A stretch of DNA of 64,000 nucleotides from Prosthecobacter debontii (GTDB lineage Bacteria > Verrucomicrobiota > Verrucomicrobiia > Verrucomicrobiales > Akkermansiaceae), in assembly GCA_945869465.1 (NCBI GenBank), contig CAMBPB010000003.1, positions 1 to 64,000 of the forward strand, given 5' to 3'. Position numbers and translations under genes: made by a program. The notes under the pieces were generated by a model. It was not told the origin of the DNA and searched no databases. It saw only the letters and a list, made by a program, of their open reading frames with translations. Every line of letters begins with the position of its first letter. Positions within the stretch are counted from its first letter, which is position 1. This document shows, in pieces, positions 48,205-51,909 of this stretch.

Positions 48205-48801
48205 TCACCCCTGCAGGACGCGCAGGGCCCCGCGAACCAGCGCTTCGGCAGGAGCGTTGGCTTCGCCTTCCAGCACTTTGCGCAGCGCCTTGCGGGCATC
48301 CACCTGTTTGTAACCGAGGGCCAGCAACGCCAACTCCGCGTCGGCGCCGGCGGCGCTGACCTCGCCGGCGGCGGCATCCTGCCAGGTGTCGGTCACCCCG
48401 ACCTTATCCTTGAGCTCCAGCACGATCCGTTCGGCGGTTTTTTTCCCCAGCCCCTTGATGCGGGAAAGTTCCGCGGTGTTTCCCGCGACCACGCAGCTTT
48501 TAAAACGCGTAACGGGCATCCCGCTCAGCACCGCCATCGCGATCGACGGGCCGATCCCGCTTACGCGCTCGATGAGCATCAGGAACACATCGCGTTCCTC
48601 CTCGGTGGCAAAGCCATAAAGCGTGTGGGCGGTTTCCCGAATGTGGAGGTGCGTCCGCAAATCCACTTCCAAGCCCTCCGCCGCGTGCAGGCGATCAAAG
48701 GTGGAAAGTGGCACGATCACTTCGTAACCGACCCCATGCACATCCACCACCAAGCGGTTCGGATACGCCTCGATCACCTTGCCGCGCAATCTTGCAATCA
48801 T
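48205..48801 (-). CDS. ruvA: Holliday junction branch migration protein RuvA
   Basis: This 198-residue protein forms tetramers that hold Holliday junctions for RuvB. The N-terminal OB domain is MIARLRGKVIEAYPNRLVVD. The two helix-hairpin-helix motifs are ERVSGIGPSIAMAVLSG and RIKGLGKKTAERIVLELKDK, and a linker leads to the C-terminal RuvB-binding domain (ELALLALGYKQVDARKALRK). The length is normal. The stop is 6 bp from the convergent large gene. Its start follows the TIM-barrel gene after 46 bp, so it may be the last gene of a transcript that begins with the primase-like gene. Confidence 0.95.
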   Translation of the reverse strand: MIARLRGKVIEAYPNRLVVDVHGVGYEVIVPLSTFDRLHAAEGLEVDLRTHLHIRETAHTLYGFATEEERDVFLMLIERVSGIGPSIAMAVLSGMPVTRFKSCVVAGNTAELSRIKGLGKKTAERIVLELKDKVGVTDTWQDAAAGEVSAAGADAELALLALGYKQVDARKALRKVLEGEANAPAEALVRGALRVLQG

Positions 48802-48847
48802 TCTGCCGACAGTTTGGCGACACCGCCCCGCCCGTCAATCCCGATCC

Positions 48848-49708
48848 TCACGACGTGCGGCCGGGATCGTTCAGTTCCAGACTGGCGAGAATGATGCCGA
48901 GGTAGGTTCTGGCCTGGCGGGCGCGTTCCATGATGCGATCGGGTGATTCGCCGCTGTCGGCCAGTTCGAGGATGAGCGGGCCGAGAAACCGCCACTGGCG
49001 CAACTGGCGCATGAGGGAAATCCAATCGATGGCACCCTCACCGGGCGGGAGGTGCTGGTCGCGGTCGCCTAGATTGTCATTGACGTGCAGCATGCGGAGG
49101 TGGCCTGACAGTTTGTGAATGACGGTCCGGAGGTCGCCGGATAGAAAGGCATGGCCGGTGTCCAGACAGGTGCCGACGTTGGTTTCGCGGATCGCACCTA
49201 GCAGGTAGAGCATGTCGCTGGTGTGGCCGAACATCAGGTGCGGAAGCATGTTTTCCAACAGCAGCACCAGGCCGAGATCCCGGCAGTGATGGGCCACTTC
49301 GTTGAGCGAGGCGGTGGCGCAGACCATGCGGTGGTACCATTCCTCGGGCCGGGGTTTGCCTTCCTTTTCCGGCCCCGGGTGGAGCACGACGTAGCGCGCG
49401 CCGAGGGCATGGGCGGCATTGCAGGCGACGAATACCTGGCGGACCGAGGATTCGCGGTGCGAGGGATTGAGCGACGAGATGTCGATGACTTCGGCGAACG
49501 GGGCATGGAAGGAATTGGCCACGATGCCGAGGCTTTTCATCAGGTCCGCCGCTTCCTGAACATGGACCGGATCGTGATAGTCGAGGTGGGCGGGAAACGA
49601 GCAGACCTCGATCAGGGTGAAGCCGCCATTGCGCACGATAGGCAACGCGTCCAGGATGTCGGTCCTGTAAAAACAGCCGGTGGAGATGCCGCATGGCCAA
49701 TCGCTCAT
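48848..49708 (-). CDS. Sugar phosphate isomerase/epimerase-like TIM barrel (AP endonuclease 2 fold)
   Basis: This 286-residue protein has the xylose-isomerase-like TIM barrel shared by sugar epimerases and endonuclease IV (AP_endonuc_2 family). Elements are GISTGCFYRTDILDALPIVRN, the strand GFTLIEVCSFPAHLDYHD, HAPFAEVIDISSLNPSHRES, VLHPGPEKEGKPRPEEWYHR, LLLENMLPHLMF (metal Glu) and GTCLDTGHAFLSGDLRT (Asp/His), and a final LGPLILELADSGESPDRI. The first codons overlap the end of the primase-like gene by 4 bp, so the two are translationally coupled. Whether it acts on sugars or on DNA is unresolved. Confidence 0.8.
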   Translation of the reverse strand: MSDWPCGISTGCFYRTDILDALPIVRNGGFTLIEVCSFPAHLDYHDPVHVQEAADLMKSLGIVANSFHAPFAEVIDISSLNPSHRESSVRQVFVACNAAHALGARYVVLHPGPEKEGKPRPEEWYHRMVCATASLNEVAHHCRDLGLVLLLENMLPHLMFGHTSDMLYLLGAIRETNVGTCLDTGHAFLSGDLRTVIHKLSGHLRMLHVNDNLGDRDQHLPPGEGAIDWISLMRQLRQWRFLGPLILELADSGESPDRIMERARQARTYLGIILASLELNDPGRTS

Positions 49709-51174
49709 AAGGGTCGGGGATGGTTTTTCTTTGGCAGATAGATCTTACCGTAGATCGGAGCCAGCGAGCAATCGCAGGGGTTCCAACAGAACTGTTTTTC
49801 CTGTTGGGAGACACAGTTGAAATCGACGCCTGTATCAACGCCCTGGTCGATTTGACCGGCGAACAGGCGGACATAGAATTCCGCGCGTTGGACGGGATCG
49901 TAGTCATCCCACTGGGCACCCCAGTGGTGGGCGGGATCCTGGAATTTGGCGGCCACGAGCGCGGCGATATGTCGCGGATGCCAGCCGCCGGCAAGCAGGC
50001 AGCGGGTGATGAGTTGGATTCCCGAGGGTTTGAGCAGCAGGTCGTTGGGGTTGGCAAGCACATGTTTGGCACAGGGTGGCAGGGTATCGATGGCCGCCGC
50101 GTCGGAGTCGGTTTTCCGCCGGGAGGGGAAACCATGGCCGCGCGAATAGAATTTGCGGTGGAAGTCCATGAGCTCCGAGTTCCGATAGGCATCGAGCAGC
50201 CGCCGGGTGCCTTTTGCTGCCTGCGGGATTCCGGCTCCGGCGCGGTGGGCCAGATCGATGATGGTGGCGGGATTCTGGCGCTGTTCGATGAGTTGAAGGA
50301 TATTCATTTCATGCAAAGGCAGGGTGAAAAACCCCGGCACCTGGTCGGAAATGCCAAGGCGCTCGATCAGTCCGGATATCCAGGGCTTGCGGTAAACGGT
50401 GTAGGGGATGCGGATCATCCGGCTCGGCAGGGGATCGCCATATTCGGAGATATCGATCGAGAGCATTTCCCGCGCGCCGGAGCGGCCGTGGCCGACGTGT
50501 TGGGCGGTGATTTCCACCGGGATTTCGCACACCGCACCCGCTTCCCGCTTGAGCAAGTGGGCGAGGAATTCCATCAGCAGGGCGACGTGCGGAAACAGCG
50601 GGTCTGGCGGGCTTTCGAGCTCCGGCGTGGTGCAAATGCCGAGGCGCGCAATCGCCTCGGCGATCGGAGAAAACCTGCGGATTTTCCACACGAAATGGTG
50701 GCCCTGGCCGGTGACGACGTGGAGATAGTGAATGCCGAAGGCGAGCAAGCGGCTTTCGATCACGCGGACCAGCGGTTCCTGAAGCAGGAACGTCCGCTGT
50801 GGATCCACGAAGGCCGCCGCGGGATCGTCGAAGTTAACATATTCGATGTCCAAGTGAATGAGCATCGACACCCGGTCTTCGAGTGAGCGTGCCAGCTCGC
50901 AACTTTCGTTGAGGATCGAATGGAGATGGGCGGCAGGCTGGCGATCGACCTTGCACGGGTTGGACGGGTCGAGCCGCCCAAGAAACAGGCAGGTGGCGTT
51001 TTTCAGGTGGTTTCCGCCCAGATACTCGATGATCCGTTGTCTAACCATCGAGTTTTCAAGCACCTCCCGGAAGGTGGGAGACGGATTGGGCTCGGCGAGG
51101 AGCGTGCCATGTTTCATCGCGATGGGAGCGGGGGAGTGCGTTGAAAGCGAGGGGAAATCCTCCCTCGCTTTCAT
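49705..51174 (-). CDS. Putative archaeo-eukaryotic primase (AEP)-like protein with Cys-rich C-terminus
   Basis: This 489-residue protein is not an obvious housekeeping primase. Three stretches resemble AEP catalytic motifs: LIHLDIEYVNFD (acidic pair D109/E111), VVTGQGHHFVWKI (residues 153-165, like the sGxGxH motif) and MLSIDISEYGD (D241). The last third has PPCAKHVLANPND (C368), then NCVSQQEKQFCWNPCDC with C454, C463, C467 and C469, reminiscent of the PriL iron-sulfur domain. The start may be 51174 or the internal ATG at 51117. It overlaps the TIM-barrel gene by 4 bp. Identification rests on motif reading only. Confidence 0.55.
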   Translation of the reverse strand: MKAREDFPSLSTHSPAPIAMKHGTLLAEPNPSPTFREVLENSMVRQRIIEYLGGNHLKNATCLFLGRLDPSNPCKVDRQPAAHLHSILNESCELARSLEDRVSMLIHLDIEYVNFDDPAAAFVDPQRTFLLQEPLVRVIESRLLAFGIHYLHVVTGQGHHFVWKIRRFSPIAEAIARLGICTTPELESPPDPLFPHVALLMEFLAHLLKREAGAVCEIPVEITAQHVGHGRSGAREMLSIDISEYGDPLPSRMIRIPYTVYRKPWISGLIERLGISDQVPGFFTLPLHEMNILQLIEQRQNPATIIDLAHRAGAGIPQAAKGTRRLLDAYRNSELMDFHRKFYSRGHGFPSRRKTDSDAAAIDTLPPCAKHVLANPNDLLLKPSGIQLITRCLLAGGWHPRHIAALVAAKFQDPAHHWGAQWDDYDPVQRAEFYVRLFAGQIDQGVDTGVDFNCVSQQEKQFCWNPCDCSLAPIYGKIYLPKKNHPRPL

Positions 51175-51219: not shown

Positions 51220-51909
51220 TCAGTGATGGTCGCTCGGATTGCCGAGATGGCCGCGCAGCCAAGCGGCGCTCGGGTGGGCCATGGCTTCGAGTTTTCCGGG
51301 TTCGCCGAACCAATGCGAAGCGCCGGGAACCACCAGCAACTGCTTCTCTCCGCCCAAATGCGGGAGGGCTTCGCGGTTCATCGCGATTCCCCGAGGGTCG
51401 TTTTCCCCGACGATTAACAGCGTGGGACACCTCACATCGGCCAGCACGGGAGTCGCGAGATCCATCCGTCCGCCGCGAGTCACGACGGCGCCCAGTGAGA
51501 TGCCCACCTCGGCTGCGGCGATCAAAGCCGCCGCGCCGCCGGCATTGGCGCCGAAGTATCCGATCCGCAAATCTGCCGTGTCGCGGTTGGCTGCCGCCCA
51601 CTTCGTCACCGCCATCAAGCGTTGTGCCAGCAAGTTGGCGTCGTCGCGATATTGTGCCGTGGCGTCGTCGTCGCTGGCTTCAGCGTCGGTGAGCAGGTCG
51701 CAGAGCAGCGTGCCAAGTCCCTGTTCGCGGAAAATCCGGGCCATGTGCCGGATTCGCGGGTGGTTGCGGCAGCGGCTATCATCGGCAAAAATGACCAGGG
51801 CGGTCGATTCTTCGGGCACTTGAAGATCCGCGAGCAGAAAGACGCCGCCTGCGGCGATCCGTATGCATTTGCTGATCTCACCAGTTGGATTGGATTGGAT
51901 TGAGTTCAT
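51220..51909 (-). CDS. Dienelactone hydrolase-like alpha/beta protein lacking the catalytic serine
   Basis: This 229-residue protein has the alpha/beta-hydrolase order: ESTALVIFADDSRCRNHPRI (first strand/oxyanion), LRIGYFGANAGGAAALIAAA where the nucleophile elbow should be, CPTLLIVGENDPRG (Asp) and VVPGASHWFGEPGKLEAM (His). Relatives carry GxSxG at the elbow, but here the position holds Asn (G-A-N-A-G), so classical esterase activity is unlikely. Aspartate and histidine are retained. It is immediately upstream of the primase-like gene (45 bp) and in the same orientation. Confidence 0.75.
   Translation of the reverse strand: MNSIQSNPTGEISKCIRIAAGGVFLLADLQVPEESTALVIFADDSRCRNHPRIRHMARIFREQGLGTLLCDLLTDAEASDDDATAQYRDDANLLAQRLMAVTKWAAANRDTADLRIGYFGANAGGAAALIAAAEVGISLGAVVTRGGRMDLATPVLADVRCPTLLIVGENDPRGIAMNREALPHLGGEKQLLVVPGASHWFGEPGKLEAMAHPSAAWLRGHLGNPSDHH

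Follow-up and report, generated by a model that had tools for sequence, protein, structure and literature searches.

What is the function of a gene for a 489-residue protein in Prosthecobacter debontii whose stop codon overlaps the start of a gene for a TIM-barrel protein, and does the ruvA gene that follows belong to the same unit? In the window, by which we mean the whole 64,000-nucleotide stretch of DNA that was analysed, all three genes lie on the minus strand: the first at 49705-51174 (489 aa as first called), the gene for the TIM-barrel protein of the AP_endonuc_2 fold at 48848-49708 (286 aa) and ruvA, for the Holliday junction branch migration protein, at 48205-48801 (198 aa; TIGR00084 match, E 1.3e-57). 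The stop codon of the first gene (TGA, 49707-49705) and the start codon of the second (ATG, 49708-49706) share an ATGA at 49705-49708, and this 4-bp overlap translationally couples the two genes, while the end of the TIM gene is separated by 46 bp from the start of ruvA. A preliminary description of this DNA had suggested a three-gene module for DNA repair or replication restart; on recheck its coordinates proved exact, as did the 4-bp overlap and 46-bp gap, and D109/E111, TGQGHH 155-160, D241, C368, C454, C463, C467 and C469 all lie at the positions given there (489-aa numbering). Since relatives of the first protein begin there or later, the ATG at 51117, which gives 470 aa, is a likelier start than 51174. 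Residue numbers below refer to this 470-aa start, and adding 19 gives the 489-aa numbering. An alpha/beta hydrolase gene (51220-51909), on the same strand, ends 45 bp upstream of the first open reading frame; it is not kept beside the pair in the relatives' loci that were compared. As argued below, the first protein appears to be an archaeo-eukaryotic primase (AEP), and we propose, with evenly balanced confidence, that the AEP and TIM genes together form a module for DNA gap repair in Verrucomicrobiota, which is independent of Ku and LigD and does not include ruvA.

A peptide-pattern search of GTDB genomes yielded 59 AEP loci (L022-L080), almost all of them in Verrucomicrobiales. At none of these 59 other loci, searched up to 6 kb either side, does ruvA adjoin the pair, and this includes L022, which is 71% identical. 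Judging from gene order, ruvA is therefore a neighbour by chance and lies outside the conserved unit. The 46-bp spacing and the shared strand in this genome would fit a unit that includes ruvA, and the three genes could still be co-transcribed here, but with no ruvA near the pair in any of the other loci we consider a three-gene unit extremely improbable; as a conserved unit, the three-gene module proposed at the outset has to be given up. The other neighbours of the pair vary freely among the relatives, and this variation refutes the earlier proposal only in its ruvA part.

The TIM gene follows directly after the AEP gene in 57 of the 58 testable loci, the exception being L074 (L075 is untestable, as the locus ends at a contig edge). 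Of 56 loci in which the spacing was measured, 44 have an overlap of 4 or 8 nt between the two genes, usually an ATGA. Among 59 related genomes, the 19 that have the AEP gene are the very ones that have the TIM gene, and all 20 copies are paired, with no gene standing alone; one genome (G039) carries two copies of the pair. In L044 (2486-4762), AEP and EndoIV-fold protein form one 758-aa open reading frame. The contig of L044 is labelled Planctomycetaceae and its sequence groups inside a Verrucomicrobiaceae clade, which suggests a binning error or a transfer. An apparent 758-aa fusion in L031 contains ambiguous bases and was left out of the count. Pairwise distances of AEP and TIM proteins correlate (r = 0.79), a correlation that shared descent also explains. 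Taken together, adjacency, overlap, co-occurrence and one fusion bear out the tight coupling of the two genes that the preliminary description had noted. L114 (5759-7595), from a genome of the same class that consists of one contig, has an AEP frame lacking its C-terminus and, behind it, no more than a fragment of the TIM gene; a deletion could have hit both genes.

The 489-residue protein could not be assigned to a family by sequence (Pfam, NCBIfam, PHROG, PADLOC and PDB sequence searches). Its AlphaFold model, built from a 52-sequence alignment (pLDDT 89.4, pTM 0.91), has an N-terminal AEP domain at residues ~7-315 and a C-terminal, helical four-cysteine domain at residues ~315-465. When the model was compared with PDB chains by structural alignment (VIA), the top 49 rows were nearly all AEPs. 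The closest solved structure is Mycobacterium smegmatis Prim-PolC (Z 16.9 over 252 aa, 3.9 A), and LigD polymerase domains (PolDom) reach Z values of about 15 (best 15.5), a CRISPR-associated Prim-Pol 12.8 and PriS about 12. The model thus predicts a true AEP fold, as had been supposed from the motifs. A link to LigD or Prim-PolC at the sequence level was not detected: PF21686 (LigD Prim-Pol/Prim-PolC) matches neither the AEP protein nor anything else in this genome, and hhalign against four LigD domains gave a probability of 0.3 with a narrow profile.

The AEP motifs occur in order, with D90/E92 for motif I (DxD/E), TGxGxH141 for motif II (sxH) and D222 for motif III (hD), and they are followed by an R-x-x-R-x-P...K stretch that is invariant in all 52 aligned relatives. 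Altogether, D90, E92, H141, D222, R233, R236, P238 and K244 are identical in 52/52 sequences. As these relatives keep the catalytic residues invariant at identities of 36-71%, the motifs are not there by chance. Part of the TGQGHH conservation in L022-L080 stems from the search itself, whose patterns included the peptide QGHHFVW. In a cross-check set of 18 sequences from whole-genome searches (A1), which has no pattern bias, the TGxGHH motif and the motif III residues are likewise invariant, and D90/E92 are nearly so, one member being truncated. Sampling the phylum broadly, we found AEP relatives in 10 of 387 genomes.

The cysteines that had been called PriL-like fared less evenly. C368, C454, C463 and C469 (489-aa numbering) are the conserved ones, whereas C467 is not among them. 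All but one of the 52 AEP relatives have four cysteines, the first within LPPC; the exception, L069, lacks one, and L062 has its fourth a little further along. All four are gone in a distant homologue at L113, though the AEP-TIM pair persists there. The C-terminal domain modelled alone (pLDDT 89) has as its top VIA match the 4Fe-4S domain of the human primase large subunit (3q36_B, 110 residues) with a Z of 4.6, a value so low that it proves nothing alone, and the primase RepB' ranks third (Z 3.7, over its C-terminal part). The Pfam family with weak matches in the largest number of members is PF04104 (primase large subunit), at 3/52 (best E 0.01), one of them placed at residues 328-356 of L035. 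An hhalign comparison of the domain with human PRIM2 aligned LPPC with FPPC at a probability of 1.9, which is not significant, and the cysteine spacing is 86-9-6 here and 80-17-40 in PRIM2. The tail is likely a PriL-like metal or Fe-S domain, in line with its weak resemblance to the PriL Fe-S domain, and it may bind an Fe-S cluster. PriS-PriL and PolpTN2 share with our protein an AEP domain followed by a helical four-cysteine domain starting with (L/F)PPC; they differ in that a PriL N-terminal domain is missing here and that the gene is chromosomal rather than on a plasmid or virus.

Such a tail raises the question of whether the protein primes DNA synthesis. The AEP might prime de novo past stalled forks while the TIM-barrel protein deals with abasic lesions or with the ends of primers where synthesis restarts. 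Priming, and not only filling, is suggested by the combination of PriS-like and PriL-like parts in a single chain and by the weak match to the PRIM2 Fe-S domain, and PolpTN2 has an AEP-PriCT-PriL-like order (PMC5862659). Against this, the closest fold is that of Prim-PolC and PolDom and not of PriS (Z 16.9 versus 12), the pair was not seen coupled to a gene for a helicase, SSB or PriA-type protein, and ruvA is not conserved. We therefore regard this repriming or translesion reading as unlikely. Replication restart, as in the preliminary description, has nothing but the fold in its favour, and gap repair fits the nearest structural relative better. A broader formulation, in which a Prim-Pol of PriS-PriL type in one chain, with an Fe-S cluster, and an obligate EndoIV-fold nuclease would constitute a self-contained, chromosomal incision-and-fill system of Verrucomicrobiota for abasic-site repair or repriming, is possible but tentative.

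The TIM-barrel protein belongs to AP_endonuc_2 (PF01261, E 1.6e-38), confirming its earlier fold assignment. Alignment to mycobacterial endonuclease 4 (5zhz) and to MJ1311 (3wqo) revealed that all nine metal-ligand positions of EndoIV are present (H68, H110, E152, D183, H186, H208, D217, H219 and E248), and each is at least 95% conserved in 58 TIM orthologues. This nuclease-type metal site upholds the earlier suggestion that the protein is not simply one of sugar metabolism. Endonuclease IV (Nfo), MJ1311 and TTHB071 (3ayv) have the same fold and the same nine positions. The match to the Nfo model TIGR00587 is 43.1 bits, far below the cut-off of 129.65, and a glutamine stands where 5zhz has the arginine of the DRH metal motif; for these reasons we class the protein as EndoIV-like, and not as Nfo, on sequence grounds. 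It might act instead on a small molecule or nucleotide, as an epimerase or a CbiR-like phosphodiesterase, next to an AEP that would modify RNA, nucleotides or ends by nucleotidyl transfer. The TIM protein matches models of sugar epimerases and of CbiR about as well as that of Nfo, the nearest solved chains include D-tagatose 3-epimerase as well as MJ1311, which is the closest, and the DRH arginine is replaced. Some of the nine EndoIV ligands are absent from epimerases, however, and their near-complete conservation here, together with the strict pairing with a polymerase-fold protein, makes this reading improbable in our view.

Returning to gap repair, we hypothesize that the TIM-barrel enzyme, as a metallo-phosphodiesterase, would incise at, or clean, a 3' end that is abasic or blocked. 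The gap could then be filled by the AEP with one nucleotide or a few, possibly ribonucleotides, and sealed by a housekeeping ligase; no DNA ligase or DNA glycosylase gene was seen to recur beside the pair. The AEP fold with its conserved catalytic residues, the full set of EndoIV ligands and the strict pairing are observed; a DNA substrate, polymerase activity of the AEP and the order of the steps are what we infer. In mycobacteria, Prim-PolC uses ribonucleotides to fill short gaps in BER, and in vitro repair works best if EndoIV has processed the gap (PMC5663958). By analogy, the coupled or fused Prim-Pol-fold and EndoIV-fold enzymes may be regarded as a genetic form of the Prim-PolC/EndoIV partnership. 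Like the Prim-PolC/LigC/EndoIV system (PMC5663958), the pair combines an AEP fold with an EndoIV-fold partner and is independent of Ku. It differs by the lack of detectable sequence similarity, by the extra four-cysteine C-terminal domain and by the absence of a ligase from the operon, and here the EndoIV-like gene is itself in the operon or fused.

Two genomes of the same genus encode fusions of ExoIII, phosphoesterase, ligase and PrimPol, at L125:2664-5816 (+, 1050 aa) and L126:1145-4477 (-, 1110 aa), in which an ExoIII-family domain is located at the N-terminus of LigD (G030, G009). They appear to be an independent joining of an AP-endonuclease-type domain to an AEP polymerase, as in the AEP-TIM pair, from which they differ by the ExoIII fold and the additional ligase and phosphoesterase domains. 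Because of this independent fusion and the Prim-PolC/EndoIV precedent, we favour incision or cleaning followed by filling. Counting against gap repair, the nine EndoIV ligands also occur in MJ1311 and TTHB071, proteins of the EndoIV fold whose substrates are different or not known; the missing sequence link to LigD or Prim-PolC, the Nfo score below cut-off, the glutamine in the DRH motif, the presence of ExoIII, the lack of a LexA box and the lack of a recurrent glycosylase or ligase neighbour count in the same direction.

The genomic background was surveyed for other repair genes. Ku and LigD were not found in this genome; many genomes with the module have no Ku, and some that have Ku lack the module. 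A dependence of the module on Ku was accordingly rejected. Apart from its AEP fold, the pair is also set off from the LigD polymerase domain of NHEJ by having no ligase or phosphoesterase domain. Canonical Nfo is present in only 1 of 59 relatives and in none of the module-bearing ones. ExoIII is encoded in nearly all these genomes, and AP-endonuclease activity is therefore not missing from them. The LexA box has the consensus TGTTC-N4-GAACA. Upstream of the loci, the best sites have two mismatches and are scattered, and SOS control was rejected for want of a good box.

In bacteria, AEPs have been described chiefly from mobile elements, CRISPR loci and the Ku/LigD pathway. The pair might be an anti-phage or mobile-element system like TOTE or the CRISPR-associated Prim-Pols. 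Its patchy presence (19/59 relatives) and the two copies in G039 would agree with this, but searches of phages, plasmids and IMG/VR gave no matches, PADLOC returned only PDC-M70B for the TIM protein at E 0.0069, the GC content of the pair is like that of its surroundings and the recurrent neighbours are housekeeping or stress genes. A mobile or defence origin was rejected in the absence of phage, plasmid or viral matches, and a defence role seems to us very improbable.

The pair often lies near genes for a universal stress protein, a PAS histidine kinase, a LuxR-type response regulator, a PocR-AraC regulator or glycogen synthase (L064, L065, L066, L049, L054, L071, L072 and L079). Lon is encoded near the pair in several lineages, and an Hsp20-like gene in L113. 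These neighbours hint at a role in stress or stationary phase, perhaps within a stress regulon, a picture that shared ancestry may inflate.

Both proteins are built from parts of known superfamilies; what is new is their combination and the chromosomal single-chain AEP/PriL-like architecture. Our literature search, with subscription literature mostly outside it, revealed no description of an operon of an AEP and an EndoIV-like protein. If our proposal is true, the pair would be a new minimal repair arrangement, in which a chromosomal AEP with a PriL-like tail is tied to an EndoIV-fold enzyme without Ku or a ligase. It would also tie an AEP polymerase directly, through its genes, to the processing of AP sites or 3' ends, a connection that, to our knowledge, has so far been drawn mainly from mycobacterial interaction and reconstitution studies. 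With two small proteins, the idea is easy to test.

Distant AEP relatives were also found in another family of the phylum (L115:154-1443; L116:6148-7512, +; L116:7843-9156, -), with an hhalign probability of 99.3%. They have no TIM partner, no cysteines and no Pfam match of any kind. Because these homologues lack both the cysteines and the partner, the AEP-TIM pairing appears to be a later addition. The two relatives in L116 lie close together in opposite orientation.
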